Of a stretch of DNA of 64,000 nucleotides, positions 13,012 to 52,255 are shown piece by piece. Where the stretch lies: the NCBI RefSeq assembly GCF_006265175.1, contig NZ_VDCQ01000043.1:1-64000 (forward strand). Direction: 5' to 3'. The notes under the pieces are model-generated. The model worked only from the letters and a program-made list of their open reading frames with translations. It ran no database searches and was not told where the DNA came from. This DNA is from Paenibacillus hemerocallicola (GTDB lineage Bacteria > Bacillota > Bacilli > Paenibacillales > NBRC-103111). Both the position numbers and the translations under genes were made by a program. Positions within the stretch are counted from its first letter, which is position 1. The number at the start of each line of letters is the position of its first letter.

Positions 13012-13078
13012 GCTTGTAAAACCTATTGCAGTGACGGAAAATATTCCGTATGATCGATGAAGGGCGTTTAAAAAAGAG

Positions 13079-13096
13079 ATTGAATTTTTATTCTCT
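13079..13096 (-). promoter_or_regulatory. ARG box (ArgR/AhrC operator) on the argC promoter
   Basis: The minus strand of 13079-13093 reads GAATAAAAATTCAAT, which matches the second part of the B. subtilis AhrC/ArgR consensus CATGAATAAAAATKCAAK at all 15 positions. It covers the -35 element and the spacer, so arginine-bound repressor would block RNA polymerase. Confidence 0.75.
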
Positions 13097-13108
13097 TGAT
13101 TGTATAAT
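13080..13108 (+). promoter_or_regulatory. Promoter of the arginine cluster
   Basis: TTGAAT (13080-13085), 17-bp spacer, TATAAT (13103-13108), giving a leader of about 60 nt before argC. Confidence 0.85.
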
Positions 13109-13174
13109 GATGCATATGTTTTAAGGGACGGCATCATCGGGATGAGCGAGTTTCAACATGGGGGAGGGTTTGCC

Positions 13175-14224: not shown

Positions 14225-14330
14225 AGCACCCCAAAAAGTGGAGCTACGTAGCAAATGCCGAATACTTTCGGGAACGCCGGGGTTGGGCATGCATATAGCA
14301 TTGTTGAAGAAAGATGGTGATGGTTGCGGT

Positions 14331-15563: not shown

Positions 15564-15638
15564 ACGATCGATCATAAGTAAGGGGCTGCGAATGGAAGAC
15601 AATCGCGGCTCCTTAGCAGGTAAAGGAGCACTTTTTTC

Positions 15639-16427: not shown

Positions 16428-16496
16428 CCGAAACGGCTTCGGATTTGCTTGACGTTTTTATCGAACGGAATAAGAACCGAAATGGAGTGAGGACTT

Positions 16497-17687
16497 GTGA
16501 GCGAACAACAGAGCGCGCTGTTCCCGACGTATGCCAGATTCCCGATTACGCTTTTGAAAGGGGAAGGCAGCCGTCTTTGGGACGATACGGGCAAAGAGTA
16601 CCTCGATTTCGCCAGCGGACTGGCGGTAACGAACTTGGGCCACGTGCCGGAACGTGTCAAGGAAAAGCTCGTCGAGCAGCTTGGCGAGCTGTGGCACGTG
16701 AGCAACCTGTTCCATATCCCGAATCAGGAGAAGCTGGCCCGGTTGTTAGCCGACAATAGCTGCGCGGACGCCGTCTTTTTCTGCAACAGCGGGGCCGAAG
16801 CGAACGAGGCCGCAATCAAGCTGGCCCGCCGTTACAATGCCAAAGTACTCGGCAAGCAGCGCTATGAAATCATAACGTTCCATACTTCGTTCCACGGACG
16901 GACACTTGCTACACTGACGGCGACGGGGCAGGACAAGGTGAAGGAAGGCTTCCATCCGCTGCCGGAAGGGTTCGTATACGCCCCTTACAACGACGCGAAT
17001 GCGCTCAAGAGCTACGTGACCGACAAAACGTGCGCGATCATGCTCGAGCTGGTACAAGGCGAAGGCGGCGTAAATCCGGCAGACGCGGCGTTCGTGCAGG
17101 AAGCCGTACGGCTGTGCAAGGAGCACGATCTGTTGCTCATCGTCGACGAGATCCAGACCGGCATGGGCCGGACGGGCAAGCTGTTCGCCTATGAGCACTA
17201 CGGCATCGAGCCGGACATATTTACTTTGGCAAAAGGTCTCGCCAGCGGTTTTCCGATCGGGGCGATGCTGGGCAAGGCGAAGCTGCGCGATGCATTCTCC
17301 GCGGGCAGCCACGGCTCCACCTTCGGCGGAACGCCGATCGCTACGGCAGCCGGAATCGCCACGGTCGAAACGTTGGTCGAAGGCAAACTGCCGCAGCGGG
17401 CAGCGGAATTGGGAGACTATTTCGTAGCCCAGTTGAACGCCAAGCTGGGCAGCAATCCTCTCGTGAAGCAAATTCGCGGCAAAGGGCTCTTGATCGGCAT
17501 CGAGTGCACGCTGCCGGCATCGGAGTTCATTCCGGCCATTCATGAGGCGGGATTGCTGGTTACGGGTGCGGGGCCAAACGTGATCAGGCTGCTTCCGAAC
17601 TTGCTCGTTACCCGCGAGGACGCGGATAAAGGGATCGATATTATCGCCTCCGTGCTGGCTCAGAAAGCGGCGGCATCGGTCAAGTAA
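16497..17687 (+). CDS. argD: Acetylornithine aminotransferase
   Basis: 396 residues, class III PLP aminotransferase. The PLP lysine lies in FTLAKGLASGFPIGAM; IVDEIQTGMGRTG and FFCNSGAEANEAAIKLARR are family signatures. It converts N-acetylglutamate semialdehyde and glutamate to acetylornithine. GTG 16497 follows GGAGTGAGGA. It continues the argC-J-B-D order. Confidence 0.96.
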   Translation: MSEQQSALFPTYARFPITLLKGEGSRLWDDTGKEYLDFASGLAVTNLGHVPERVKEKLVEQLGELWHVSNLFHIPNQEKLARLLADNSCADAVFFCNSGAEANEAAIKLARRYNAKVLGKQRYEIITFHTSFHGRTLATLTATGQDKVKEGFHPLPEGFVYAPYNDANALKSYVTDKTCAIMLELVQGEGGVNPADAAFVQEAVRLCKEHDLLLIVDEIQTGMGRTGKLFAYEHYGIEPDIFTLAKGLASGFPIGAMLGKAKLRDAFSAGSHGSTFGGTPIATAAGIATVETLVEGKLPQRAAELGDYFVAQLNAKLGSNPLVKQIRGKGLLIGIECTLPASEFIPAIHEAGLLVTGAGPNVIRLLPNLLVTREDADKGIDIIASVLAQKAAASVK

Positions 17688-34469: not shown

Positions 34470-36464
34470 ATGAGCGATATCGTGCTTCAAAACAAGCCGT
34501 TCCAATTAGTGTCGGAATTCAAGCCCCAGGGCGACCAGCCGCGGGCGATCGGCGAGCTCGTGCACGGAATAAACGAAGGGAAACGGTATCAGACGCTGCT
34601 CGGGGCAACCGGAACGGGTAAGACGTTTACGGCGGCCCAGGTTATCGCGCAGCTGAACAGGCCGACGCTTGTCATCGCGCACAACAAGACATTGGCGGCT
34701 CAGCTGTGCAGCGAGTTCCAGGAGTTTTTTCCCAATAACGCCGTGTCGTATTTTGTCAGCTACTACGACTACTTCCAGCCGGAAGCGTACATTCCCTCGA
34801 GCGACACTTACATCGAGAAGGATTCCAGCATTAACGAAGAAATCGACAAGCTCCGCCACTCCGCCACCAGCTCGCTGTTCGAACGGAGAGACGTCATCAT
34901 CGTTGCCAGCGTTTCGTGCATATACGGCCTCGGTTCCCCGATCGAATACCGGAATTTGGTGCTCTCGCTGCGCACGGGAATGGAGCGTCCGCGCAATGAA
35001 ATTCTTCACAAGCTGGTCGATATCCAGTATAAGCGCAACGATTTGAACTTCGTTCGCGGTACGTTTCGCGTTCGCGGCGACGTGATCGAAATTTTCCCGG
35101 CCTCGCGGGGAGAGCAGGCGGTGCGCGTCGAGCTGTTCGGAGACGAGATTGAACGCATTACCGAAATCGACGTGTTGACCGGCGAAATTATCGGGGAGCG
35201 CGACCATATCGCCATTTTTCCGGCCTCTCACTTCGTCACGCACGAGGATACGATGAAGGTCGCTCTTGTCGATATCGAGCGCGAGCTGGAGGAGCGATTG
35301 GCCGAGCTGCGCTCCCAGGGGAAGCTGCTGGAGGCGCAGAGGCTGGAGCAGCGTACCCGTTACGATCTGGAAATGATGCACGAGATGGGGTTTTGCTCCG
35401 GAATCGAGAACTACTCGGGTCCGCTCACATTCCGCGAGCGGGGAGCGACTCCCTATACGCTCTTCGACTATTTCCCCGACGATATGCTCGTCATCGCCGA
35501 CGAATCCCATGTAACGCTCCCGCAAATCCGCGGCATGTACAATGGCGACCGGGCGCGGAAGGAAGTGCTCGTGGAGCACGGCTTCCGACTGCCGTCGGCA
35601 CTGGATAACCGGCCGCTGCGATTCGAGGAATTCGAGAAAAAGGTGAGCCAAGCGATTTTTGTTTCCGCTACGCCGGGTCCTTTCGAAATCGAGCACTGCC
35701 CTGTAATGGTGGAACAAATTATACGTCCTACGGGCCTTCTCGATCCGATTATCGAGGTGCGTCCGACCAAGGGGCAGATCGACGACATGATCGGCGAGAT
35801 CAACGATCGGATCGCCAAAGACGAGAGAGTGCTCGTTACGACGCTCACGAAAAAAATGTCCGAGGATTTGACCGATTATTTGAAGGAGCTCGGCATCAAG
35901 GTGCGCTATTTGCACTCGGATATAAAGACGCTGGAGCGGATGCAGCTGCTGCGCGATTTGCGTCTCGGAACGTATCATGTGCTCGTAGGGATCAATTTGC
36001 TGCGCGAAGGCTTGGACTTGCCGGAAGTATCGCTCGTAGCGATTCTCGACGCGGACAAGGAGGGGTTCCTGCGCGCGGAGCGGTCGCTGATCCAGACGAT
36101 CGGCCGGGCGGCCCGGAATGCGAACGGCCGGGTTATTATGTACGGAGACAAACGGACCGATTCGATGGAGAAAGCCATTCGCGAGACCGAGCGGCGGCGC
36201 GCGGTCCAGATCGCCTTCAACGAGAAGCACGGCATTACGCCGCAGACGGTACAGAAGCGGGTACGCGACGTCATCGAGGCCACGAAGGTAGCCGAGCAGA
36301 AGGCCGACTATTTGACCGATATCAAGTCCGAGAAAATGTCGAAGAAGGACCGCGCTTCGGTGATCGAACGGTTGGAGGCGGAGATGAAGGAAGCGGCCAA
36401 AAATTTGCAGTTCGAACGGGCGGCCGAGCTTCGCGACGCGATATTGGAACTGAAGGCGCAGTAA
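34470..36464 (+). CDS. uvrB: Excinuclease ABC subunit B
   Basis: 664 residues. Walker A is [12 protein letters not shown]; the beta-hairpin that opens DNA is in [20 protein letters not shown]; helicase motifs include [20 protein letters not shown] and [19 protein letters not shown]. The C-terminal UVR motif that binds UvrC is at about residues 625-660. UvrB verifies lesions and loads UvrC in nucleotide excision repair. The start ATG 34470 follows GTGAGGTA. uvrA follows after 18 nt. Confidence 0.98.
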
Positions 36465-36482
36465 AGGAAAGGATGATCCGAA

Positions 36483-39365
36483 TTGGCACAAGATCGTATT
36501 GTGATCAAAGGAGCGCGAGCTCATAATCTTAAAAATGTAGACGTGACGATTCCACGCGACAAGTTCGTCGTTCTGACCGGGCTAAGCGGCTCGGGCAAAT
36601 CGTCGCTTGCTTTCGATACGATTTATGCGGAAGGACAGCGGCGTTATGTCGAGTCGCTGTCCGCATACGCACGGCAATTTCTCGGACAGATGGATAAGCC
36701 TGACGTCGATTCGATCGAGGGGCTGTCGCCGGCCATCTCCATCGACCAGAAGACGACAAGCCGCAATCCGCGTTCAACGGTCGGGACGGTAACGGAAATA
36801 TACGATTATCTCCGTCTTATGTTCGCGAGAATCGGGCGGCCGCATTGTCCGGACCACGGGATCGAAATAACGGCCCAATCCGTGGAGCAGATGGTCGACC
36901 GGATCATGGAGTACCCGGAGCGGACGAAGCTGCAAATTTTGGCGCCGATCGTATCAGGACGCAAGGGAGAGCATACGAAGCTGCTGGCGGATATCCAGAA
37001 GCAAGGCTTCGTACGCGTTCGCGTGAATGGCGAGGTGCGCGATTTATCCGAGAAAATCGAGTTGGAGAAAAACAAAAAGCATTCGATCGAAGTGGTTGTC
37101 GACCGGATCGTCGTAAAGAACGACATTCACGCGCGTCTGGCCGATTCCCTGGAGACGGCCTTGAAGCTGTCGGACGGACGCGTAATCGTCGATGTGATGG
37201 ATCAAGAGGAGCTGCTGTTCAGCCAGAAGCTCGCTTGTCCGGAATGCGGCTTCAGCATCGAGGAATTGGCGCCCCGCATGTTCTCGTTCAACAGTCCGTT
37301 CGGAGCATGCCCGGAATGCGACGGCTTGGGCGCGAAAATGATCGTTGACCCGGACCTGCTCGTGCCGAATTCGGCTCTGACGATCGAAGACGGTGCATTC
37401 GAAGCGTGGGCGGGAAGCACGTCGAACTACTACCCGCAATTTTTGGCCGCCGTTTGCGAGCATTACGATATACCGAAGAACGTTCCCGTATCCGAGCTTG
37501 ATGCGGATCATATGAAGAAAATATTGTACGGTACCGGCGGGGAAAAGATCAAATTCCGTTACGAGAACGACTTCGGGTTTACGAAGGAGGCACTCGTCCC
37601 GTTCGAGGGAATCGTGCGCAACCTGGAGCGGCGTTACCGGGAGACCGGATCAGACGGCATCCGGGAGCATATCGAGCAATATATGAGCGCGAAGCCGTGC
37701 CAAGGCTGTAAAGGACATAGGCTGAAGCGGGAAAGCTTGGCCGTCACGATCGCCGGCCAAAACATGGCTTACGTTACCCGTCTATCGATCGGAGAAGCGG
37801 CGAGCTTCTTCGAGTCGTTGGAGCTGAGCGAGAAAGAACGGACGATCGCCAATCTCGTTCTGAAGGAAATCGAAGCCCGACTCGGGTTTCTCGTAAACGT
37901 AGGGCTGGACTATTTGTCGCTCAATCGTTCGGCCGGAACGTTGTCCGGCGGCGAAGCGCAGCGGATCAGGCTTGCTACCCAGATCGGCTCCAGCTTGATG
38001 GGCGTTCTATATATTTTGGACGAGCCCAGCATCGGGCTGCACCAAAGGGATAACGACCGGCTAATCCAGACGTTGGAGCATATGCGCAACTTGGGCAACA
38101 CGCTTATTGTCGTCGAGCATGACGAGGATACGATGCTGGCTGCCGACTACATTATCGATATAGGGCCGGGAGCGGGCATACATGGCGGACAAGTAGTCGC
38201 GCAAGGGACTCCCGAAGAGATTATGAAAGATCCGAACTCGTTGACCGGTCAATATTTGAGCGGCAAGAAGTTCATTCCTATACCGAGCCCGAGACGCAAA
38301 CCGAACGGCAAATGGCTTGAAGTCAAAGGGGCGAAGGAAAACAATTTACGCGGCGTGAACGTCAAAATTCCGCTCGGCGTTTTCAGCTGCGTCACCGGAG
38401 TATCCGGCTCCGGCAAAAGCACGCTGATCAACGATATTTTGTATAAGGCGCTTGCCCGCGATTTGCAGAAAGCCAAGACGCGTCCCGGGGAGCATAAGGA
38501 GATAGCGGGGCTGCAGCATATCGAGAAGGTGATCGATATCGATCAGTCGCCGATCGGCAGAACGCCGCGTTCCAATCCGGCTACTTATACCGGCCTGTTC
38601 GACGATATTCGCGACGTCTATTCCAACACGACGGAAGCGAAGGTCCGAGGCTATAAGAAAGGCCGATTCAGCTTCAACGTGAAAGGCGGACGGTGCGAAT
38701 CGTGCCGCGGGGACGGCATCATCAAGATCGAAATGCACTTCTTGCCCGACGTGTACGTGCCGTGCGAAGTATGCAAAGGGAAACGGTACAATCGCGAAAC
38801 GTTGGACATCAAGTATAAAGGAAAAAGCATCGCGGAAGTGTTGGAGCTTACAATCGAAGACGGCTGCGAGTTTTTCCAGAACATTCCGCGAATTCACCGG
38901 AAGCTGCAGACGCTGCTTGATGTCGGCCTCGGTTACATGAAGCTCGGTCAACCTGCAACGACATTGTCCGGGGGAGAGGCGCAGCGGGTGAAGCTGGCCG
39001 CCGAGCTGTACCGGCGCAGCACCGGCAAGACGATATACATTTTGGACGAGCCGACGACGGGACTTCATATTGACGACATCGACCGGCTGCTGACGGTGCT
39101 GCACCGTTTGGTAGATAGCGGAGAAACGGTACTCGTCATCGAGCACAATCTGGACGTGATCAAGACGGCAGACTACTTGATCGATCTGGGACCGGAAGGC
39201 GGGAACCGGGGCGGTACGATCGTTGCGGTCGGCTCTCCGGAGGAAGTGGTCCAAGTAGCCGAATCTTATACGGGCAAATATCTGAAACCGATCTTGGAAC
39301 GAGACCGGGTAAGGACCGAGCAGCAGCGGGACGCTGCAAAGCTGCAAGAAAACGCCGTCGTATAG
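36483..39365 (+). CDS. uvrA: Excinuclease ABC subunit A
   Basis: 960 residues with two ABC ATPase modules. Module 1: [15 protein letters not shown]; signature [15 protein letters not shown]; Walker [15 protein letters not shown]. Module 2: [44 protein letters not shown]. Two zinc fingers are visible as CPECGFS..CPEC and [12 protein letters not shown]. UvrA finds DNA damage and hands it to UvrB. TTG 36483 follows AAAGGATGA. It shares the promoter of uvrB and ends in a strong terminator. Confidence 0.98.
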
Positions 39366-40763: not shown

Positions 40764-41912
40764 TCAAAACTGAAGCAACCCTTTATAAATACGCAGCACC
40801 ACGTCCGAATTCCCGCTATATACGATGACAGCCGCCGTCACCAGCAGTTGGGTGCATATGCAGCGGAAAAAGAAATAGCCGGACGACACCTTTTTCCGGT
40901 TAACGAGAGACAGCTTCATTAAGCTTTCCAGTGCCATCAGGATGCCGTGGTAGAGCCCCCAGAGCAAGTACAGCCACGAGAAGCCATGCCATAGTCCGAT
41001 GCATACCATGATCAGGATCGACAATCCGGCAGCCGCGCCGCGGGATGAATATTTGCGCGAGAAAATCATGAAAATATGGTCCCGGAACCAGTCGCCGAGC
41101 GTAGCGTGCCAATTGCGCCAATATTGGGTGAGCGTAGGGGACAGGAACGGCTGTTTGAAGTTTTCCGGAATCGTATAGCCCATCAGCCGGCCGAAGCCGA
41201 TCGCGATATCGGAATAACCGGAGAAATCGAAATAAATGAGCGCATAAAACCATACCATCAGAAACAAGCTGTGGTAAAAACGAAGATCGTGCCCGAGCAC
41301 GTCCTGAAACACGACGGTCATGCCTGCGACTAGCACGACTTTCTTGAACAAGCCCAATATGATGCGCTTGATTCCGGCTGCGAAATCGGCTGCGGATACG
41401 GCATAAGGCTTCTTGGAATCGGCGATGAAGTCGCGGAACTTCAGGATCGGTCCCGAGGTGAACGTCGGGATGAACAGCAAGTAGTTGACGAAGTCCAGAA
41501 ACGGCGCTTTGCCGTCCTTGCCTACGTAATAAGCGAAATAGTAGGCGTCGATCACTTTCAGAACCGTGTAAATAAGACCGAATAAGTAGATCGCGTCGAA
41601 AAGCGGATGCTCGAATATGTGCATCCCGAACAGCCGGAGCGAGGCGACGGCGGCCACATTGAGCACGATCGCGGTACCGAACAGCAGTCTCCGTCCTTTG
41701 GGAGCGTAGCACATCCATACGTATCCCGCGTAGTTGACGAGTACGTACACGGCCGAGAAAAGGAACAGCTTGCGGCTGAACAAGTACAGGAAGCATAGGT
41801 TGAACAAGAGCACGAGTATTCGTTTGTTGTGCGGCCATCGCCGAGTTAAGCTGAGCACGAAGACCATGCCGAGCAGGGCGGCCAAAGCGTGCAGGTTCAA
41901 CAAATAAGACAT
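40764..41912 (-). CDS. DltB-like MBOAT acyltransferase
   Basis: 382 residues with about ten membrane helices. MBOAT landmarks: YFDFSGYSDIAIGFGRLMGY (228-246), QYWRNWHATLGDWFRDHIF (263-281) and the active-site His309 in IGLWHGFSWLY. DltB moves D-Ala from carrier DltC toward the outside polymer. Here it is the last gene of a minus-strand operon with a carrier protein, a synthetase-like ligase, a DltD-like protein and a DltX-like peptide, so aminoacyl transfer across the membrane is the best guess. AlgI-type O-acetyl transfer is the alternative, but the carrier and ligase speak against it. The start codon follows AAAGGAGC. Confidence 0.9.
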   Translation of the reverse strand: MSYLLNLHALAALLGMVFVLSLTRRWPHNKRILVLLFNLCFLYLFSRKLFLFSAVYVLVNYAGYVWMCYAPKGRRLLFGTAIVLNVAAVASLRLFGMHIFEHPLFDAIYLFGLIYTVLKVIDAYYFAYYVGKDGKAPFLDFVNYLLFIPTFTSGPILKFRDFIADSKKPYAVSAADFAAGIKRIILGLFKKVVLVAGMTVVFQDVLGHDLRFYHSLFLMVWFYALIYFDFSGYSDIAIGFGRLMGYTIPENFKQPFLSPTLTQYWRNWHATLGDWFRDHIFMIFSRKYSSRGAAAGLSILIMVCIGLWHGFSWLYLLWGLYHGILMALESLMKLSLVNRKKVSSGYFFFRCICTQLLVTAAVIVYSGNSDVVLRIYKGLLQF

Positions 41913-41942
41913 GAGCGGGCTCCTTTGGGAATGGACGGTCGA

Positions 41943-42053
41943 TCAAAAGCCTTCATAAATAAACAGCCCTTTGCCCGTAAAGCAAACGGCCACAAGAGCG
42001 AGCATGATCGCGTAGACGATCACTTCCCCGACTTTTCGAAGGAACGCAGCCAT
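41943..42053 (-). CDS. DltX-like micropeptide
   Basis: 36 residues, easily missed. One membrane helix (about residues 9-28, VIVYAIMLALVAVC) and the C-terminal sequence GLFIYEGF. DltX of canonical dlt operons is a single-helix peptide ending in a FIY-type motif, and its C-terminal Tyr has been reported as an acyl relay between DltB and DltD; Tyr33 would be the equivalent here. Translation signals are excellent: GGAGGTGG then ACCG before ATG. The start lies 34 nt inside the 3' end of the DltD-like gene, and the MBOAT gene starts 30 nt after its stop. The motif and location make this call much stronger than length alone would. Confidence 0.8.
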   Translation of the reverse strand: MAAFLRKVGEVIVYAIMLALVAVCFTGKGLFIYEGF

Positions 42054-42955
42054 CGGTCCACCTCCGACGTAAATTTGGGCGCGCCCGTCTCCCGGTTCAA
42101 GTGGACGAGGTCGTGAAATTCGTCCGGCTTGAAGACGTCGGATAAGTCCAGGACGGGTATGCCGTTCGATTGCAAAGTACCGCCTACGCGTTCCTTGAGC
42201 TGCTTCCAGTAGGCCGGCTGCGGATAAGCGGTGTCCGGATTGAGCGGCATCCATACGACTTTAAGTGGCAGCGCGCGATCGTTCGCATAACGGATTACCC
42301 AGTCGAGCGCATCGAGATTGTCGGCCATATCCCCTAGCTGCATCCAGCTGTAATTGGCTTCGTAGCGTTCCCAGTCCTTCTTCAGCTGTTCGGCCGGTTC
42401 GCGCCCGAAGTACAGCTCCTTGTCGATCCAGCGGGGCTCGTACGTGCCGAAATCGAGTTCCCTCCGGAGCAGTCCGGCCCAAGCGTTGCGGATCCACTCC
42501 CCGCCCGCATCCTGGAAATAGTCGCGATAGTGGAATATATACGGGCTGTACCACGGCCTGGACCAAGGGAAACGGGGATCCGTCTGCATCCGGTCCAGCA
42601 TCGTATGCACGTCGATGCCGATGACGAGCTGCTCTTGGAAGTCATATAAGCCGCGCTTCATGATTGCCCGCAGATCGGTAATTTTGCCGTACGACATGCC
42701 CATTTCCACCAGCGGCAGCTGCGCCTTGTCTTCCATATACGCACCGGTAACGGCCGAGTTGCCAAAAAAAACGGGACCGGACCGATCCCACTGATGATGA
42801 AACAACGTTTTCGTAAAATCGTCTTTCTCGAACCGCCGGGAGTTCGTCATCGGGTCCAGCCGAGCGACGAATACGTCAATCAGCAGGAACGCGACGACGA
42901 GCAGCAGCACGAATCCGTTCTTTCTCACATAGCTCAAAAGTTTCACGCGAATCAC
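42020..42955 (-). CDS. DltD-like SGNH-type membrane-anchored protein
   Basis: 311 residues. One N-terminal membrane helix (residues 13-31) anchors an outside domain. VFFGNSAVTGAYME near residues 62-74 holds the likely nucleophile Ser67, and FHDLVHLNRETG near 280-290 holds Asp282 and His285 in the D-x-x-H spacing of SGNH hydrolases and DltD. DltD passes D-Ala to lipoteichoic acid at the outer face. Here it stands between the ligase gene and the DltX-like peptide gene. It starts 9 nt after the ligase stop codon. Confidence 0.82.
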   Translation of the reverse strand: MIRVKLLSYVRKNGFVLLLVVAFLLIDVFVARLDPMTNSRRFEKDDFTKTLFHHQWDRSGPVFFGNSAVTGAYMEDKAQLPLVEMGMSYGKITDLRAIMKRGLYDFQEQLVIGIDVHTMLDRMQTDPRFPWSRPWYSPYIFHYRDYFQDAGGEWIRNAWAGLLRRELDFGTYEPRWIDKELYFGREPAEQLKKDWERYEANYSWMQLGDMADNLDALDWVIRYANDRALPLKVVWMPLNPDTAYPQPAYWKQLKERVGGTLQSNGIPVLDLSDVFKPDEFHDLVHLNRETGAPKFTSEVDRWLRSFEKSGK

Positions 42956-42964
42956 TCGTTATCT

Positions 42965-44170
42965 TTATTTGGATTGCCAAGCGCGGTACTGCTCGCGGAA
43001 CGACACGGGCCAGCCTTCCTCGTTCAAGCCGAATTGGGCAAGGAACGCGAATACCCACCGCTCGAGCCCGAAGCCGACGCAGCCGGTAGTGGCCGGCCGT
43101 TTGCCGATCTTGATATCGAACGCGGTACCGAAGGCGGTGCTGTGAAAGTTGACGGAGCTGCAGGCGATCGATTTGTTGATGTAAGGGATGGTCAGCCGCA
43201 TTTCATACTTCATTTCCTGATTGCGCTGGAACGAGGCCTTCACTTGAAAATCGTTCGTGAAGAACGGGTCGTTCGCGTTCTCGATCAGGCAGTCGATTTC
43301 CCATTCGCGGGCCAGCGTCTTCAGATGCTCTACCGCTTTCAGCCGGCTCTCGCGGACGAACTCCGGTTTGCCGACGAAAATGATTTCGCGCATGCTGAAG
43401 TCGAGCAAGCGGCCGAAGTCGGTATGGTTTTTCGATTCGTAACGGTGGCATTTGGCCACCGCGGTCGCGACGATGCCGTCTCCCTCGAGCGACTCTCCCT
43501 GCAGCCCTTCATAGCAATGATAGCACGTAGACGGATTCATCGCGAAGCGGGGCTTGGGCATATTCCGATTCAAATCGAGCGGAGCGTCGGCTTTCCAGCC
43601 GCCGGATTGCCGGATCGATTCGGAGAACGATTCGATGACGTCCAGATCGTCCCTCAGATGGCTCAAGAAATGAAGGTGCTCCGGGAACGAGGTGAAATGA
43701 TTCGTCTTATCGAGCGTAGACAAATGGATGACGGCCGGATACGACTCCTCTTTGGCCCCGAAGGCGTTCGCGATCCGCTGCACGAACGTGTCGTCGAAGA
43801 AGCGCAGCAAGCTCGAGAACGGTTCGCGGAATATGAACAGACCCGGCTCCAGCACCTTGATCGTCTTGGCCTCGACCAGATCCGCGATAATATCGCCTCG
43901 GTATGGCATCGTGCCCCTGTTCTCGAACAGAATATGCTCTTTAAAGCCGAAGTCGCCCTTGGAAAACCGTTCGATCAGCCGCTGGACGCCGGCTGCGATC
44001 TTGTCCCCGCCGTCCGGATCGTGGTGGGTGATCGTTATCGTGCCATTCTCCAGTCGTATGTCGTCAATATGCTCGCTTACGAACGCCGAGGCGTATTTGA
44101 GCTGTCCATGCTGGTTCGGATCGAGCCGATCCAAGGAAATGACGCAGGTAGTCGCGTTATCGGTATGCAT
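42965..44170 (-). CDS. SerRS-like amino acid:carrier-protein ligase
   Basis: 401 residues of a class II synthetase core. Motif 2 is CHRYE (241-245), with REIIFVG after it; motif 3 is GFGLER (366-371). Probable zinc ligands Cys216, Glu262 and Cys364 have the spacing seen in archaeal-type SerRS and the bacterial amino acid:carrier-protein ligases. The N-terminal about 150 residues are not the long coiled-coil tRNA arm of SerRS, so tRNA charging is unlikely. Known relatives activate Gly or Ala and load a carrier-protein phosphopantetheine. The carrier gene ends 4 nt upstream, which makes it the obvious partner. It would replace DltA. Ribosome site GGGGAGG precedes ATG. Confidence 0.85.
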   Translation of the reverse strand: MHTDNATTCVISLDRLDPNQHGQLKYASAFVSEHIDDIRLENGTITITHHDPDGGDKIAAGVQRLIERFSKGDFGFKEHILFENRGTMPYRGDIIADLVEAKTIKVLEPGLFIFREPFSSLLRFFDDTFVQRIANAFGAKEESYPAVIHLSTLDKTNHFTSFPEHLHFLSHLRDDLDVIESFSESIRQSGGWKADAPLDLNRNMPKPRFAMNPSTCYHCYEGLQGESLEGDGIVATAVAKCHRYESKNHTDFGRLLDFSMREIIFVGKPEFVRESRLKAVEHLKTLAREWEIDCLIENANDPFFTNDFQVKASFQRNQEMKYEMRLTIPYINKSIACSSVNFHSTAFGTAFDIKIGKRPATTGCVGFGLERWVFAFLAQFGLNEEGWPVSFREQYRAWQSK

Positions 44171-44174
44171 GGCG

Positions 44175-44426
44175 TTACCTCCCCGTTTTGGCGGCGATAA
44201 AGGAGGATATCTCCGTTATCGTGTTGAGCGGATACAGCATCAAATCCTGATTCGTTACTTGAATGCCGTACGTTTTCTCGATATGCGCGATCAAGGCGGT
44301 CGCTCCGATCGAATCGATGAAGCCATAATCGAACAAATGGACATCGGTGGTGAAATCGTCATCGTTCTCTTCGATTTCGTAGCGCTCCCGGATATGGCGC
44401 TCCAGTTCCAGCATAATGTCTTCCAT
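44175..44426 (-). CDS. Carrier protein (DltC/ACP-like)
   Basis: 83 residues, acidic, four-helix ACP pattern. The phosphopantetheine Ser39 sits in DYGFIDSIGATAL, where most carriers have DSL. The end ITEISSFIAAKTG is the usual helix 4. It most probably carries an aminoacyl thioester made by the ligase encoded 4 nt downstream and gives it to the MBOAT protein. ATG 44426 is 8 nt behind GAAGGAG; a TTG two codons upstream is too close. It follows the FG-GAP gene by 30 nt in the transcript. Confidence 0.9.
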   Translation of the reverse strand: MEDIMLELERHIRERYEIEENDDDFTTDVHLFDYGFIDSIGATALIAHIEKTYGIQVTNQDLMLYPLNTITEISSFIAAKTGR

Positions 44427-44456
44427 CGTCAAGTCTCCTTCTAAAAGTCTGGTATG

Positions 44457-47400
44457 TCAATCGCTCGGCATCGTAACGGTAATGCTCGTCTTGGCCCCGA
44501 AATGCGTGACGGTATACAGGTTGTCCTGCGGGTCTTTCTCGATCTTCAGGTCTTGGCCGGTTATGTTCAGCGGCCTAGGGGCGTACAGCTTGACCTGCTG
44601 CATGCCGTCGGAGTCGAGCCGGATCGTCCATGCCGTCCCGTTGTCCTCGATGCGGACGGGAACGTTGGAACGGACGATATGGAAAGGCTCGGCGCCCCAG
44701 TTGACGGAGACGCTGGTGAGACGGCGCAGGCCGAGACCGACGTACAGCTTGTCCTCTTTTTTTGTAAAGATGGGAGAGTCCGTCGCGAACGGGTAGTCCG
44801 CATAGCGTTCGCCCGGCTCGAAGACGACTCCGGCCGTATCTCGGTATTCGCCTGCCATGTCCGGCACTCCGTCCGTATCGGCGGAGATGGAAAGCGTCAA
44901 ATGCAGCCCTTTGCCGAATTTCGTCTTCAGCCGATCGATCGCATAGACGAGCCAAGGGCGTTCCACCCGGATCTCGCTTTTCATCGTGGCGAGGAACGAG
45001 CGGGCCATTTGCGGCTCGGCCATGAAATTGTAGTCGTAGGACGTCCGCAATTCGTCGAAGAAGCGGACGAACGTGGTCATCATATTCCTTTTGTCCGGAT
45101 CGTCGTATTGGTATTCGATATGCTCGAAATAATCGATCGGCATGTCCAGCATGGCGTACGATTTGTAAATGTCCGACGTACCTTTGTCGCCCGGCTTGTA
45201 CATAAAGCCCGGGGCATGGAGCAGCATCGACGTCTTCAACCGGCTGTCGTCCAGCAGAAAAGGGAAGCTCCATACGAAGTCTTGGCCCCATTGAGGCTCC
45301 GTCGGACTGTCCGACGGCTTGAAGCCGAAGTTGTACCAAATGTCGGCTTCGTTCTCGTTGCGCAGCGTCTGCAGCCGATCGAGCTGATTGATCCGCCATG
45401 TATGCTGGTTCGTTCCCGTATGGGTCCACGGTAAGCCTAGCGCGGCGAACGACTTGCGCTGCAGCTGCAATTCCAGCTTCTCCTGCTCGGAGCTGAGAAA
45501 GCTGTGCACGTATACGTGCGGAACGATTTCCAGCTTGTTCGTAGCGGCGTAGTCGAGAAATTCCCGCAGTTCCTTCTTGAACGGAAACGCGGGGTCGTCC
45601 ACCGGAACGGGCTTGCTGTACTGCAGCTGGCCGACGATCAAATCTTCCTTGCCGTCATGGTTCAGATCGGCCCAGAGCGGCACCGAATACTGTCCGCCGA
45701 CGAGCGCCTTCGAGCCCATCTGATTGTTCGTACGGCCTTCGATCGGCCCTTGCAGCAGCCAGCTCCCGGCGTTTTGGGCGTATACGAGCAAATCCCCTTC
45801 GCTGTTGCCAACGACAAGGTCGGGGATTTTGTCTCCGTCCATGTCGCGGATAGCCGGCGCCGCGTAACCGGCTTTTATTTGGAACAGCGGCCGGCCCGGG
45901 CCGAACTGCATCGGTTTGCTGGGAATGCCGGCATAGGCCGTAAGACGTCCGTCCGCATCGCCGACGACCAGATCGATCGTCCCGTCCCCGTCCATATCTC
46001 CGATAGCGGGAGCCGCATGGGAGCGGGCCCGAATCGGCTGCCCGTCGGACAATAGAGAGACGGGGGAGGCGAAGCCGCCCTTTTTTTGCTGAAGCAGGGC
46101 TACGACGTCCCCTTTGGCGCTTCCTATCGCCAGGTCGATCAAGCCGTCACCGTTAAGGTCGGCTGCCGCTACCGTAGAGTAGCCGTCCGTGCGGAATACC
46201 TGTCCGTTAGCGAGCTTCAGCTGCTGCGGGGCTCCGAACCCGTCGGGGTGCGAGGTCCCTTCCGGCACCATTTGCGTGGACAATTGTTTCCCCGCGTTCG
46301 GATAGTGGTATAAATAACCATCGAAGCTGCCTACGATCAAATCGGGCAGGCCGTCCCCGTTCAAGTCGGCCAGGGCCGGATATGCCCGGTACGGCAGCTC
46401 GAGCTTCATCCCGAGCTGGTTTTTGCCGGGATAAAGGCCGACCGTCAGCGGACTGTTCCCGCTGGTGACGAGCGTCCCGCTGGAATAGAACGAGTTCGGG
46501 AATTCTCCGACGAATTGCGGCTTCTCCGTAGTTCCCGTATTCAAATGAACCGTAATGCCCTCGTACCAGTGGTGCCAGTCGAACGACGAACGCACGAGCG
46601 AGAACGATGGAATCTGGTTGTACGTCTTGAGCTGCTCCGCCCACGCGATGCCTTCCTTATGCTCAATCGCGGGAAGCGCCTCGAAATGGTTCTGGTACGC
46701 CATGGCCGGGCGTCCGTAAGGGCCGAACACCTTCTTGAGGCTGTATCCGAGCGTTTCCTTCGATACGTAGGATAAATATTCATTGCGGAACAAATGGTTG
46801 GCCGCCGCGAACGAGAAATGAAAGTAAGGCTCTTGCGGCAGTCCGGTCTTGAATTCGAAATATAAAGAGCGTCCCGGCGCATTCAGTCCCATGTCGTGCT
46901 TCGTCGCTTTCGTCGGAAAGCCTTTGGCCGAATCCATTCCGCTTTGCAGATCGAACCCGGTAATGAAATACCGGTTCGGCAAAAACGTGCTTGCCGATAG
47001 TACGGTGCCCAGCCCGTACCGGTTGACCGCGTACAGCGCCTGTCCGTTCATCGATACGAGAGGCTCGGCCGTGGAAGGGACGATCGCTTGCCCCCAATCG
47101 AACCCGGGCATCATATCGGTCATGTCGGTTATGTATCCGTGGGCGGTAAAGTTGTCCGCAAACTGCTTGAATACGTTTTGCAAGCCTTGCAAATTTCCGC
47201 GTACTTGCGGGTAATCGAATATCGGCTTGGCCGAGCCTTTGACTGGCTCGAGGGCGGATGCGCCGAGCAGCTGCGCGGGCAAGTCATTCAGCAGGTCGTT
47301 CTCTACGAACAAGTGGCCGCCTTGGCTCACATACGCTTCCAGATCGGGTATGGCTTCCCGCAGCACGGGCGATTGCTTGAGCGAAACGTCCAAATAAACG

Positions 47401-47633
47401 GCATCGTAAGATTGAAGCCGTTTCGCATCGAGCTTGTCGAGAGAAAGCCGGCTCACGTCGGCATTGGCTACAATCGCTTGTTGGAAATTCAGATAAGCCG
47501 CCCGGTCGTAAGCATCCCCCCCGCTGGCGTACAGCAGCCGCACCCGCTCCTGCCTGTGGCTGAATACGAGCGCGAACACCGCGACGAGCAGCAGGAGCCC
47601 GACGAACCAGGCCGCTTTTTTGCGCAATGACAA
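44457..47633 (-). CDS. Large membrane-anchored FG-GAP/VCBS repeat protein
   Basis: 1058 residues, first gene of the Dlt-like operon. One N-terminal membrane helix (8-24); residues 30-250 resemble a Rossmann-type or amidotransferase-like fold (YDAVYLDVSL, YVSQGGHLFVENDLL). Five FG-GAP repeats between about 415 and 670 have calcium-loop text such as DLNGDGLPDLIVG and DMDGDGTIDLVVG and should form a beta-propeller outside the cell. The C-terminal 370 residues (from about 690) may be a barrel-type domain like polysaccharide deacetylase relatives, but I cannot confirm this. A surface glycan-binding or processing role is inferred from the operon. TTG start with GAGGGA upstream. Confidence 0.8.
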   Translation of the reverse strand: MSLRKKAAWFVGLLLLVAVFALVFSHRQERVRLLYASGGDAYDRAAYLNFQQAIVANADVSRLSLDKLDAKRLQSYDAVYLDVSLKQSPVLREAIPDLEAYVSQGGHLFVENDLLNDLPAQLLGASALEPVKGSAKPIFDYPQVRGNLQGLQNVFKQFADNFTAHGYITDMTDMMPGFDWGQAIVPSTAEPLVSMNGQALYAVNRYGLGTVLSASTFLPNRYFITGFDLQSGMDSAKGFPTKATKHDMGLNAPGRSLYFEFKTGLPQEPYFHFSFAAANHLFRNEYLSYVSKETLGYSLKKVFGPYGRPAMAYQNHFEALPAIEHKEGIAWAEQLKTYNQIPSFSLVRSSFDWHHWYEGITVHLNTGTTEKPQFVGEFPNSFYSSGTLVTSGNSPLTVGLYPGKNQLGMKLELPYRAYPALADLNGDGLPDLIVGSFDGYLYHYPNAGKQLSTQMVPEGTSHPDGFGAPQQLKLANGQVFRTDGYSTVAAADLNGDGLIDLAIGSAKGDVVALLQQKKGGFASPVSLLSDGQPIRARSHAAPAIGDMDGDGTIDLVVGDADGRLTAYAGIPSKPMQFGPGRPLFQIKAGYAAPAIRDMDGDKIPDLVVGNSEGDLLVYAQNAGSWLLQGPIEGRTNNQMGSKALVGGQYSVPLWADLNHDGKEDLIVGQLQYSKPVPVDDPAFPFKKELREFLDYAATNKLEIVPHVYVHSFLSSEQEKLELQLQRKSFAALGLPWTHTGTNQHTWRINQLDRLQTLRNENEADIWYNFGFKPSDSPTEPQWGQDFVWSFPFLLDDSRLKTSMLLHAPGFMYKPGDKGTSDIYKSYAMLDMPIDYFEHIEYQYDDPDKRNMMTTFVRFFDELRTSYDYNFMAEPQMARSFLATMKSEIRVERPWLVYAIDRLKTKFGKGLHLTLSISADTDGVPDMAGEYRDTAGVVFEPGERYADYPFATDSPIFTKKEDKLYVGLGLRRLTSVSVNWGAEPFHIVRSNVPVRIEDNGTAWTIRLDSDGMQQVKLYAPRPLNITGQDLKIEKDPQDNLYTVTHFGAKTSITVTMPSD

Positions 47634-47710: not shown

Positions 47711-47738
47711 ATTATAGCATTTCATGCTTGCTTGTTAA
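47711..47738 (-). promoter_or_regulatory. Promoter of the Dlt-like operon
   Basis: On the minus strand TTAACA (47738-47733), 16-bp spacer, TATAAT (47716-47711). The spacer holds the small palindrome GCATGAAATGC. The leader is about 70 nt. Confidence 0.7.
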
Positions 47739-47844
47739 ACATTTGACGATCGGCGGAAGGAGAAAGTTGCCGATCCGACTCCACTTTTGTCGATACATCC
47801 GATATAATTCGAGGCAAGACTTCCGTTTGGAGGAGGAAACACGC

Positions 47845-48828
47845 ATGGAAAAAAATACAGTGGTTTGCTTGGGAGAGCTTTTGATAGATTTTGTGCCGCA
47901 ATCGAACGGGCTGCCTTTGTCGCAAGTCGACACGTTTCACAGAGCGGCCGGCGGCGCTCCGGCGAACGTGGCTGCCGCGGTGGCGAAGCTCGGAGGGAAG
48001 TCGCGGTTTATCGGGAAGGTCGGCCGCGATCCGTTCGGGGAATTTTTGCGCACGGCGTTGGAGGAGGCAGGCGTCGAGCCGGCTCTTACCATTACGGACG
48101 ATGCCCGGACCGGGCTTGCTTTCGTATCGTTGAGGGAAGACGGAGAACGCGATTTCGTGTTTTTCCGCAGCCCGGCGGCGGATATGCTGCTGCGCAAGGA
48201 GGATGTGGAAGATAAATGGCTTCGCGATGCGGCCATCTTTCACTTCGGCTCGGTGTCGCTCATAGCGGAGCCGTGCAGGACGGCGACGCTGGATGCGGCC
48301 AGACGGGCAAGAGCGTACGGGGCGCTCGTCTCTTACGATCCGAACGTCAGACTGCCGTTATGGACGAATGCGGACTTTGCCCGCCGGACGATACTCGATC
48401 AGCTGCCGTTTGCCGACTTGGTCAAAGTAAGCGAGGACGAGATCGGGTTTCTGTACGGCGGAGCCGGCATCGAGGAGGGAGCGCGGCTGATGCTCGGGCT
48501 CGGGCCGCGGTGCGTCGTAGTGACGCTGGGCGCAGCAGGCTGCCGCGTATTCACGCAGACGGGCGATGTAACCGTTCCCGGCGTATCGGTCGAGGCGGTC
48601 GATACGACCGGAGCGGGCGACGGCTTTGTCGGCGGGCTGCTCTGGAAGCTGGCGAACGCGCATATCGATGCGTCCGGGTTGGATGAGACGCTCGCCGAAC
48701 CGGCTTTCGCCGTCGAGGCTCTCCGTTTCGCCAATGCGGTCGGGGCGCTCGCGACGACGAAGCGCGGTGCTATTCCTGCTCTGCCCGCGCGGAGCGAGGT
48801 CGAACGCAAGCTGAGCGGGGAGGCGTAA
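47845..48828 (+). CDS. PfkB-family sugar kinase, probable fructokinase
   Basis: 327 residues. GGAPANVAAAVAKLGG near residue 36 is the first PfkB signature and DTTGAGDGFVGGLLW near 250 the second, with the catalytic Asp. The N-terminus VVCLGELLIDFVP is typical of bacterial fructokinases and related 2-keto-sugar kinases. It would phosphorylate fructose or a similar sugar with ATP. ATG 47845 follows GGAGGAGG; a TATAAT at 47803-47808 may be its -10. It is divergent from the Dlt-like operon, and a phosphoesterase gene follows 3 nt later. Confidence 0.9.
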   Translation: MEKNTVVCLGELLIDFVPQSNGLPLSQVDTFHRAAGGAPANVAAAVAKLGGKSRFIGKVGRDPFGEFLRTALEEAGVEPALTITDDARTGLAFVSLREDGERDFVFFRSPAADMLLRKEDVEDKWLRDAAIFHFGSVSLIAEPCRTATLDAARRARAYGALVSYDPNVRLPLWTNADFARRTILDQLPFADLVKVSEDEIGFLYGGAGIEEGARLMLGLGPRCVVVTLGAAGCRVFTQTGDVTVPGVSVEAVDTTGAGDGFVGGLLWKLANAHIDASGLDETLAEPAFAVEALRFANAVGALATTKRGAIPALPARSEVERKLSGEA

Positions 48829-48831
48829 CGG

Positions 48832-49344
48832 ATGGCCGACGTTTTCTTTATATCCGACCATCATTTCGGGCATAAGCACATTATCGATTTCGAGTCGAGA
48901 CCGTTCGGCAGCACGGAGGAAATGACCGAGACGATGATCGCGAAATGGAACGCGGCCGTCGGCAAGGACGATGTCGTCTTTCATTTGGGCGATTTTTCCT
49001 TCCTCAATAAGGAGAAAACGAGCGCCATACTGGGACGGTTGAACGGAACGAAAACGTTGATCATGGGCAATCACGACAGGGGACGCTCGCGGACTTGGTG
49101 GCTCGATGCGGGTTTCGAGCAGGTGAGCGAATACCCGATCGTGTACGGCGGTTTTTTCCTGCTGTCGCACGAGCCGATGTATATGAACAAGCACATGCCG
49201 TATGTGAATATCCACGGACACATCCACGGGCAAAAGTACGAGGGCAATCAGTATTTCAACGTAAGCGTGGAGCATTGGGACTACACGCCCGTATCGTTCG
49301 GGGAGATCAAGAAAAGGGTCGTCCCGAGCGAGGAGCATGGATAG
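48832..49344 (+). CDS. Calcineurin-like metallophosphoesterase
   Basis: 170 residues. Metal motifs in order: ISDHHFGH (D-x-H), HLGDFSF (GD-x-x), MGNHDRG (GNHD), SHEPM and NIHGHIHG (GH-x-H). Single-domain members like this act on small phosphoesters or nucleotides, but the substrate cannot be read. ATG 48832 lies 4 nt after the sugar kinase stop, with GGGGAGG in the kinase end, so both are translated from one message. A terminator follows. Confidence 0.92.
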   Translation: MADVFFISDHHFGHKHIIDFESRPFGSTEEMTETMIAKWNAAVGKDDVVFHLGDFSFLNKEKTSAILGRLNGTKTLIMGNHDRGRSRTWWLDAGFEQVSEYPIVYGGFFLLSHEPMYMNKHMPYVNIHGHIHGQKYEGNQYFNVSVEHWDYTPVSFGEIKKRVVPSEEHG

Positions 49345-49369
49345 TCTATCGTGCATATGAGGGTTATAG

Positions 49370-49407
49370 AGCGATCGGTTCCCTATTCGGGAGCTTGATC
49401 GCTTTTT
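49370..49407 (+). terminator. Terminator of the sugar kinase-phosphoesterase operon
   Basis: AGCGATC / GATCGCT with inner TCCC / GGGA, followed by TTTT. The stretch from here to 49720 holds a promoter but no supported gene. Confidence 0.8.
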
Positions 49408-49639
49408 ATGCTGCGGCCTATTGTAACGGGCACGCCGATTGACCGCCGGTTACCCGGGGGCGATTGCTTCGTTCGACGGATCTGGCCGACGCCAGAAAAT
49501 GCGACGGGACGTCCGTCGAACGGCTGGACGGGCTGCGTGTCGCTTACCGGGACACGAATTTGGTCGGGCTTCTCGTCAAAGCTTTCTAAACAATCCGACG
49601 AGCTTGCGCATAAAATCGATCCAAATTGCTCCGATGGCG

Positions 49640-49669
49640 TTGCTGCCCCCTTTTCTGGTACACTATAAG
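49640..49669 (+). promoter_or_regulatory. Promoter of the U32 peptidase gene
   Basis: TTGCTG (49640-49645), 18-bp spacer, TATAAG (49664-49669), about 45 nt before the start. Confidence 0.55.
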
Positions 49670-49720
49670 GATAAGGGGGCGGTCGGAACCGCTCCATGCA
49701 AGCTATTGGAGGAACGAATC

Positions 49721-52255
49721 ATGCGCGAAGACATTCGCATCGAACATATCGAGCTGTTGGCTCCTGCCGGCGATTGGGACTGCATGCGGGCAGCCGTCGC
49801 CAACGGGGCCGACGCCGTCTTTTTCGGCGTGGACAAATTCAACGCCCGCGTACGGGCGAAAAACTTTACGATGGACGAGCTGCCGGACATTATGTCGTTT
49901 TTGCACCTGTACGGGGTAAAAGGGTTCGTCACGTTCAACATTCTCGTGTTCGAGGAGGAGCTGAACGACGCCAAACGTCTGATCGAGGCTTGCATCGACG
50001 CCGGAGTCGATGCGGTCATCGTCCAGGACCTCGGACTGGTGAAGCTGATCCGGGACATATCTCCGGATTTCCCGATTCACGGCTCGACGCAAATGACGAT
50101 CACCTCCCCGGAGGCGGTCGAATTTACGAAGCCGTTCGATATCGAACGGGTCGTACTCGGACGCGAGAACAATTTGAAGCAAATCAAGCAAATCGGCGAC
50201 CAGGCGAAGCTTCCGATGGAAGTGTTCGTACACGGGGCGCTGTGCGTTTCCTATTCGGGCCAATGCTTGACTTCGGAAATGTGGGGCGGCCGTTCGGCCA
50301 ACCGCGGGGAATGCGCGCAAGCATGTCGGCTGCCTTACGATCTCATGGTCGACGGCGTGCAGAAGCCGATGGGAGATGTCGCCTACTTGCTGTCGCCCAA
50401 AGATTTGGCCGCTCTGGAGCTTGTGCCGGAGCTGATCGAGGCCGGAGTGACCTCGTTCAAAATCGAGGGCCGGCTGAAGTCGCCGGAATATGTGGCCAAC
50501 GTTGTCGGCAAATACCGTAAGGCGATCGACAGCTACTTTGCCGGACGCGACCCGCAGCCGACGAAGGAGGAGCTGCGCGAGCTGCAGCAAAGCTTCTCGC
50601 GCGGCTTCACGTACGGTTTTCTCAAAGGAACGAACAATAAACAGCTGGTCGAAGGAACCTTTCCGAAAAGCCGCGGCGTATTCCTCGGGCGCGTGAAGCA
50701 GCTGCTGCGCGACGGCGTCTTGTGCGAGCTGGAAGCGCCGCTGAAGCGCGGGGACGGCATCGTGTTCGATGCAGGCGATCCTACGAAGCCGGAGGAAGGC
50801 GGACGGGTATACGACATCCGGCGCAAAGGGCAGAAGCTCGAGGGCGAGGCGGCGGGCGGATTGATCGAAATCGTGCCCGGACGCAACGATGTCGACTTGA
50901 AGCGGGTGCGCGTAGGGGACCGGATTTGGAAAACGAGCGATCCGCATTTGGACAAGAAGCTGCGGCAAACGTTCGAGACGGACAAGCCGTACCGCGTATT
51001 TCCGATAAACGTCAAAGTTGCGGGACGGCTCGGACAGCCGCTGCAATCCGTATGGACGGACGAGCTGACGGGGCATTCCGTGGAAGTTCGGTCGGAGCTG
51101 GGTCTCGTGCAGGCGGAGAAAAGACCGATGGACCGGGCGCTGTTCGAGGAGCAGTTCGGACGGCTCGGGGGGACTACTTGCGCCCTGAACGGCCTGGAGC
51201 TCGACCTGGAAGGGTCGCTCATTATCCCGATGAGGGAGCTCAACCAGATGCGCCGTCTTGCGGTCGAGCAGTTGGAGAAGGCTCGCCAGCAGCCGCGCAA
51301 ATATAGGAAGCGTAGTGTAGATGTGTATGAGGATGCGCACCGCCAAGTACCGGCCGGAATATTCTCCTCCGATGCAGGGGGCGATCGTCCGCAACAGCCG
51401 CATCTCATCGCGTTATGCCGCAATCTGGAGCAGGTGAAGGCGGTATTGACGACCGAAGTGGAATGGATCTACGCCGACTTCGAGTTCATCAAGCAGTTCC
51501 CGGCGGCGATGGAGGCGGTGCGGGCGGCAGGCCGGAAGATCGCTTTGGCTACACCTCGCATCCATATGCCCGGAGAAACCGGCTACTTCAAAAACATGCT
51601 CAATCTTCGTCCGGACGCCATGCTCGTAAGGAACACCGGCGCGATGTATTACTTCATGAAGCACCGGGCGGAGAGCAAGGACGGTTACCGGCCGGAGCTG
51701 ATCGGCGACTTCTCGCTTAACGCGGTCAATCATAAGACTGTCGAGCTGTTCGTCGATGCGGGCTGCAGCCGGGTAACGCCTTCTTACGACCTGAACATCC
51801 AGCAAATGGTCGATATGCTGAGAAGGACCGATCCGTCGACTCTGGAGATCGTCATTCATCAGCATTTGCCGATGTTCCACACCGAGCATTGCGTCTATTG
51901 CACGTTCCTGAGCGAAGGGACGAATTACACGAACTGCGGGCGCCCTTGCGAGGATCACCGCGTTTCGCTGCAGGATCGAATCGGCATGTCCCATCCGGTC
52001 CGTGTCGACGAAGGCTGCCGCAATACGGTGTATAATGCGATCGAGCAATCCGGCGCGGAATATTTGCCGCAGTTCCGGGAGCTGGGCGTAACCTCCTACA
52101 GGGTCGAGTTTCTGGAGGAGTCGCCGGACCAAGTGCGCGAGGTGCTCGATCTGTACAGCCGTGCGCTGCAAGGCGCGATCAGCGGCACGAGCGTGTGGCG
52201 CGCTTTGAAAGCGACGAACCAGCTCGGCGTTACGCGGGGGCAGTTGGTCAAATGA
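49721..52255 (+). CDS. U32 family peptidase with DUF3656 (RlhA/YrrO-like, enlarged)
   Basis: 844 residues. Residues 8-330 are the U32 domain (ELLAPAGDWDCMRAAVANGA, GVDKFNARVRAKNF, signature region EVFVHGALCVSYSGQCLTS). The Cys cluster GGRSANRGECAQACR and the C-terminal HCVYCTFLSEG with NCGRPCEDH suggest an Fe-S site, as in RNA hydroxylases RlhA and TrhP, which belong to U32 despite the peptidase name. A DUF3656 part lies between about 370 and 560. A further barrel-like segment follows. ATG 49721 is 8 nt behind TTGGAGGAA. RNA hydroxylation is my preferred role, on family grounds only. Confidence 0.88.
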   Translation: MREDIRIEHIELLAPAGDWDCMRAAVANGADAVFFGVDKFNARVRAKNFTMDELPDIMSFLHLYGVKGFVTFNILVFEEELNDAKRLIEACIDAGVDAVIVQDLGLVKLIRDISPDFPIHGSTQMTITSPEAVEFTKPFDIERVVLGRENNLKQIKQIGDQAKLPMEVFVHGALCVSYSGQCLTSEMWGGRSANRGECAQACRLPYDLMVDGVQKPMGDVAYLLSPKDLAALELVPELIEAGVTSFKIEGRLKSPEYVANVVGKYRKAIDSYFAGRDPQPTKEELRELQQSFSRGFTYGFLKGTNNKQLVEGTFPKSRGVFLGRVKQLLRDGVLCELEAPLKRGDGIVFDAGDPTKPEEGGRVYDIRRKGQKLEGEAAGGLIEIVPGRNDVDLKRVRVGDRIWKTSDPHLDKKLRQTFETDKPYRVFPINVKVAGRLGQPLQSVWTDELTGHSVEVRSELGLVQAEKRPMDRALFEEQFGRLGGTTCALNGLELDLEGSLIIPMRELNQMRRLAVEQLEKARQQPRKYRKRSVDVYEDAHRQVPAGIFSSDAGGDRPQQPHLIALCRNLEQVKAVLTTEVEWIYADFEFIKQFPAAMEAVRAAGRKIALATPRIHMPGETGYFKNMLNLRPDAMLVRNTGAMYYFMKHRAESKDGYRPELIGDFSLNAVNHKTVELFVDAGCSRVTPSYDLNIQQMVDMLRRTDPSTLEIVIHQHLPMFHTEHCVYCTFLSEGTNYTNCGRPCEDHRVSLQDRIGMSHPVRVDEGCRNTVYNAIEQSGAEYLPQFRELGVTSYRVEFLEESPDQVREVLDLYSRALQGAISGTSVWRALKATNQLGVTRGQLVK

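Follow-up and report, generated by a model that had tools for sequence, protein, structure and literature searches.

A conserved gene cluster of Paenibacillus hemerocallicola, best read as Dlt-type aminoacyl export with a class II synthetase-like front end

Genes and transcription signals of the locus

The window analysed here, a 64,000 nt stretch, comes from the 9.65 Mb genome (167 contigs) of P. hemerocallicola. Inspection of its open reading frames verified six genes on the minus strand between positions 40764 and 47633, as the initial annotation had described, and the same six recur in all complete loci. In the direction of transcription they encode an FG-GAP protein, a carrier protein, a SerRS-like ligase, an SGNH protein, a microprotein and an MBOAT protein, with a promoter-like site ahead of the first gene and a strong terminator hairpin behind the last.

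The FG-GAP protein (44457..47633; TTG start) has 1058 aa and a membrane anchor read from its hydrophobic N-terminal stretch. It matches Pfam FG-GAP_3 (4.1e-25), and PDB matches to an integrin-type propeller are restricted to approximately residues 404–672; pieces of its C-terminus gave no Pfam match except a short FG-GAP one. An H-x3-H pattern prompted a reading of this C-terminus as a NodB-type deacetylase with an inserted propeller. That reading was rejected: profile comparisons with 16 deacetylases of the same genome gave E values of 0.06–0.67, and unrelated controls gave 0.013 and 0.35.

The carrier protein (44175..44426, an 85 aa ORF) matches Pfam PP-binding (3.3e-10) and carries its phosphopantetheine serine in the motif D-S-x-G-A; Asp40 and Ser41 (numbered on the 85 aa ORF) are invariant in 83 of 83 sequences. 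It scores under the cut-offs of the DltC models (27.5 of 68 bits and 21.4 of 52.35 bits). Next come the SerRS-like amino acid:carrier protein ligase (42965..44170; 401 aa) and an SGNH acyltransferase (42020..42955) with the motif F-x-G-N-S and an N-terminal membrane anchor read from the sequence. The 36 aa microprotein (41943..42053; Shine-Dalgarno GGAGG) has one hydrophobic stretch and ends in F-I-Y-E-G-F, which includes Tyr33. The last gene encodes an MBOAT acyltransferase (40764..41912; Pfam MBOAT, 4.2e-18; DltB structures, 8.4e-29) of short form, lacking a fused shuttle motif.

A consensus scan located the promoter-like site (TTAACA-16-TATAAT, 47738–47711, minus strand) 78 bases before the first gene, with 11 of 12 consensus bases and an extended −10. 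The hairpin 3′ of the MBOAT gene (40721–40683, minus strand; 18 bp stem, −33.9 kcal/mol) was identified by folding and is absent from the output of the terminator pattern scan. Promoter-like sites as such are not enriched, with three found against a shuffle mean of 3.8 at a looser threshold.

On either side of the cluster the window carries uvrB and uvrA (34470–39365) and genes for a PfkB kinase and a U32 peptidase (47728–52255). Among the loci of related genomes, with genes named from sequence, a uvrA-like gene flanks the cluster in 71 of 82 and a U32-like gene in 67 of 82, and since these flanks recur, the chromosomal site of the cluster is taken to be old.

Conservation and co-inheritance

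When a collection spanning 84,980 species was scanned once, 86 relatives were confirmed, and the best 80 of these 86 were used as loci. All six genes are found in 77 of the 80, the contigs of the other three stopping before the MBOAT gene. When the window is counted with the best 80, the carrier protein, ligase, SGNH, microprotein and FG-GAP genes are found in 81 of 81 loci, some of them split or cut by contig ends (in L082, L110 and L111 one or more genes are divided into at least two ORFs). The MBOAT gene is found in 78 of 81; the misses (L038, L043 and L106) are contigs that end nearby. In this same set the carrier protein gene lies just upstream of the ligase gene in every locus, with the SGNH and microprotein genes just downstream, and the MBOAT gene follows next in 77 of the 78 loci that have it on the contig. 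The median gap is 5 bases between the carrier protein and ligase genes and 52 bases between the microprotein and MBOAT genes. A chance arrangement is excluded by the conservation of the gene set. In L105 the MBOAT gene is displaced by 5.4 kb from the microprotein gene, and the gap (12208–17579 of that locus) holds YfbR-like and Cu_amine_oxidN1 genes.

Among the best 80 of the 86 relatives, the nearest named ones found were Paenibacillus mesophilus (ligase 94% identical) and P. ginsengarvi (90%). Within the family the ligase occurs in 96 of 104 genomes, and the whole set is also present in two loci (L162, L163) of another family of the same order. Co-occurrence of ligase and MBOAT, proposed beforehand as a check, was borne out across 296 genomes of the order: 96 hold both the ligase ortholog (E < 1e-130) and the MBOAT type (> 340 bits), two the ligase alone, none the MBOAT alone and 198 neither; these counts combine two tables whose 296-genome draws are assumed to be identical (the handles shown agree), and the genomes are related, with the cases mostly in one family, so that they are not independent events. 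The next MBOAT below the cut-off scores 148 bits, if a split gene's second fragment (198.5 bits) is set aside, and both ligase-only genomes (G007 and G025) are incomplete drafts, 68% and 78% complete. A sample of 398 genomes from across the phylum gave two matching genomes, the source genome and one with a distant paralog, and none of 208 pattern stretches from viral contigs was a relative.

The arrangement also differs in Tumebacillus (L112), from an order in which the ligase occurs in one of 14 genomes (G786, paired with L112 by contig and sequence). Its FG-GAP gene has moved downstream, remaining in the cluster, and a GNAT acetyltransferase gene (11190–11690 of the locus) stands between the ligase and SGNH genes. 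This copy with altered gene order suggests that the cluster was transferred as a functional unit. The GNAT enzyme may N-acylate the cargo, and the retention of the FG-GAP gene despite relocation would likewise fit a scheme in which the carrier-bound cargo is altered ahead of export, for instance by N-acylation, with the FG-GAP protein, or a glycan that this protein bears, as the acceptor. We give this scheme a small chance, for in the other 79 of the best 80 loci no ORF of at least 100 aa lies between the ligase and SGNH genes.

The ligase and the acyl-transfer proteins

The ligase is homologous to the crystallised glycine:carrier protein ligase Bll0957, and shares with Bll0957 and Atu2573 the fold, the zinc ligands, the motifs and a neighbouring carrier protein gene; it differs from both in an identity of 24–25% over the aligned part and in an extra N-terminal domain. 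The zinc, motif 2 and motif 3 residues, on whose integrity the initial annotation had staked its assignment, are invariant in 35 of 35 aligned ligases. The alignment and tree comprise 10 of 83 orthologs, 20 paralogs from 26 paralog regions (omitting L129, L131, L172, L175, L179 and L180) and five plasmid-borne relatives. Homology, residues and gene context together support the prediction of a class II synthetase-like enzyme that activates the amino acid for a carrier-protein-fed cluster of MBOAT, SGNH protein and microprotein. The cargo would probably be glycine or L-alanine, with no residue favouring Gly, Ala or Ser over the others.

Against the carrier-protein ligase model NF005479 (NCBIfam) the ligase scores 144 bits and does not reach the cut-off of 357, and its score against the type-2 SerRS model (141.5 bits; cut-off 611) is on a par with this. 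Residue 1 of the ligase model superposes on residue ~95 of archaeal type-2 SerRS, and the match continues onward from there. Such likeness could mean that the ligase aminoacylates tRNA, or acts as a tRNA-dependent donor for envelope modification. We hold this to be highly improbable: the first ~95 SerRS residues have no counterpart in the ligase, the carrier protein gene adjoins the ligase gene in all 81 loci, and the source genome has two ordinary type-1 SerRS genes (L232 and L233, both above the cut-off), so the ligase is not required for translation. The description of the ligase as lacking the tRNA arm was nevertheless too strong. Part of the N-terminal domain is kept, and on the structural model the SerRS domain looks truncated rather than lost. 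The second type-1 SerRS of the genome may be a drug-insensitive or specialised copy.

The MBOAT protein has its catalytic histidine (His309) in 79 of 80 sequences, the exception being a split gene. It had been described as DltB-like. Matches to DltB structures and models do exist, but the model scores do not discriminate: the DltB model gives 165 bits (cut-off 375), and the long MBOAT of the same genome scores 159, for which reason the score was rejected as proof of DltB kinship. A tree was built from 41 sequences (14 of 82 of the operon type, 6 short, 10 long AlgI-like and 11 DltB, the last comprising 9 of 16 above the cut-off plus L228 and L229). Each of the four groups falls on one side of a branch, with support of 100/100 for the operon type, 100/100 for DltB, 84/93 for short, 90/87 for long and 89/94 for short and long together. 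The operon MBOAT is thus a lineage of its own, outside the DltB clade. As the tree was built without an outgroup, and with a program warning that long branches meet, either DltB or the short/long classes could be sister to the operon type.

The motif P-[LM]-G-[GN] is absent from all 80 operon MBOATs, and within the tree set P-L-G occurs in none of 14 operon-type and none of 11 DltB sequences, in 6 of 6 short ones and in 8 of 10 long ones. It aligns within the stretch of DltB on which DltC docks, given as Met302 to Lys312 in the available text of PMC11035591. The absence of P-L-G would support a carrier-protein donor, if acyl-CoA use by the short and long classes is assumed from PatA and AlgI. 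No operon MBOAT (0/80) has the shuttle motif fused to it; a looser pattern that accepts Phe in the Tyr position also picks up 5 of 11 DltB ends.

In the SGNH protein Ser67 is conserved in 83 of 83 sequences, Asp282 in 81 and His285 in 82. The initial annotation had called it DltD-like, which the comparisons do not uphold. No Pfam DltD match was obtained up to E 1, Pfam Lipase_GDSL_2 gave 0.067 (below the cut-off), and in profile comparison the SGNH protein that accompanies the 'short' MBOAT class was the closer match (7.6e-8), DltD matching weakly at 1.7e-4 with 49% probability. By these profiles the protein is of another lineage than DltD.

The C-terminal end of the microprotein is F-[IL]-Y-E-x-F in 83 of 83 sequences. 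Over the last 26 codons, comparison with L033–L036 gave 5:1, 8:3, 10:1 and 11:3 synonymous to nonsynonymous changes, and because synonymous changes exceed nonsynonymous ones the microprotein is judged to be a real gene under purifying selection. Pfam DltX did not match the window copy or that of L048 and gave 0.27 for L112, compared with 9e-18, 1.2e-18 and 1.8e-11 for three true DltX proteins; the same motif scan detects DltX in 9 of 11 dlt loci. According to the available text of PMC12148441, a motif of the F-x-Y-x-x-F type carries the acyl group in Dlt and in PatA.

Six loci of the short class (L221–L226; for example, L223:9120–11477) carry an SGNH gene, a short MBOAT with P-L-G and a microprotein ending in FIYTDF (34–40 aa; 69 aa as called in L226). 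They have no adjacent carrier protein gene, and a carrier-like ORF lies ~9 kb away in L221. This looks like a DltX-like microprotein in an apparent acyl-CoA system, and it would go against the statement, in the available text of PMC12148441, that non-Dlt pathways are without such a microprotein. Since these loci have one with no carrier protein adjacent, a separate shuttle microprotein alone is no mark of a carrier-protein donor; and because the operon SGNH protein is nearer to the short class, which has its own shuttle microprotein, a simple kinship with Dlt is weakened.

The same two observations lend themselves to a reading in which the MBOAT, SGNH protein and microprotein perform ordinary O-acetylation from acyl-CoA, with the ligase and carrier protein having a separate task beside it, for instance the synthesis of a small aminoacyl metabolite. 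Inspected relatives of the ligase do occupy other, biosynthetic-looking clusters; among the five plasmid-borne ones, the neighbour is an acyl-CoA dehydrogenase gene in four cases and dpg and amidinotransferase genes in the fifth, and their regions hold no MBOAT, SGNH protein or microprotein of the operon's kind. Yet the MBOAT type never occurs without the ligase among the 296 genomes, P-L-G-G/N is missing from 80 of 80 operon MBOATs, and these fall outside the branch that joins short and long. O-acetylation of this kind is therefore quite unlikely.

Relation to known systems and proposed pathway

The Dlt system (DltA, DltB, DltC, DltD and DltX; D-alanylation of teichoic acids) shares with the operon a carrier-protein donor, a short MBOAT, an SGNH protein and a separate microprotein with C-terminal F-x-Y-x-x-F. 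The operon differs in having a class II synthetase-like ligase in place of DltA, an MBOAT and an SGNH protein of other lineages, an extra FG-GAP protein, and coexistence with dltA in four genomes. Organisation is strongly Dlt-like; common descent is not established by the tree or the profiles.

The expected absence of dltA from the operon was confirmed and extends to the genome, where no protein exceeds the curated cut-off (TIGR01734 requires 559.85 bits and gives at most 269). In 4 of 103 family genomes DltA was found at E ≤ 1e-150, in three of them above the cut-off. All four also hold the ligase, and none of them is among the eight family genomes without it. The two systems therefore do not exclude each other in every genome, and replacement of Dlt as the cause of dltA absence is unsupported; rather than DltA having been replaced, as first proposed, the operon would represent a separate pathway.

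PatA/PatB and AlgI-type O-acetylation also combine MBOAT and SGNH chemistry with a shuttle tyrosine, but differ in having the motif fused to the MBOAT, an acyl-CoA donor and no carrier protein, as far as the available text of PMC12148441 describes them; by the same source, the microprotein motif is placed as in Dlt and unlike in PatA. Carrier-protein ligases were the subject of a 2010 PNAS work, which we cite through the available parts of PMC9437257 and PMC2922099. The latter (2010) predicted that a SerRS-like ligase supplies an amino acid for attachment to a sugar of the cell surface; in its available text the proposal differs from ours in an amide bond made by the Atu2574 product or its like, and names no MBOAT, SGNH protein or microprotein. 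Among the literature matches listed, from coverage that leaves out most subscription journals, there was no MBOAT/SGNH system fed by a synthetase-like ligase, and none is named in the available parts of PMC12419801 and PMC6174289.

The cluster is real, conserved and functional-looking, and on sequence grounds is best read as Dlt-type aminoacyl export with a class II synthetase-like front end. We consider it likely that its products aminoacylate the envelope in Dlt fashion, along a route from ligase to carrier protein, MBOAT, microprotein, SGNH protein and acceptor. Its parts, residues and co-inheritance are observed, and from them we infer the chemistry of each step as well as the identity of amino acid and acceptor. 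The ligase would adenylate an amino acid, glycine or L-alanine being the likeliest, and attach it to the phosphopantetheine arm of the carrier protein. At the cytoplasmic face of the membrane the MBOAT would take the aminoacyl group from the carrier protein and pass it to the tyrosine of the microprotein motif, from which it would reach the catalytic serine of the SGNH protein outside. The SGNH protein would then form an ester with an acceptor outside the cell, probably a polymer of the wall or surface, and the FG-GAP protein may bind, present or itself be that acceptor.

On balance, we favour the view that this is a second, independently assembled carrier-protein route for exporting aminoacyl groups, near-universal in one family that mostly lacks DltA; fed by a relative of class II tRNA synthetases, it could decorate the envelope with an amino acid different from D-alanine. 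If the proposed pathway is correct, the relay of MBOAT, microprotein and SGNH protein would be a general export device able to work with more than one kind of activating enzyme, and SerRS-like carrier-protein ligases would gain a defined role in the envelope. It would also follow that a whole bacterial family bears a so far unrecognised amino acid ester on its surface.
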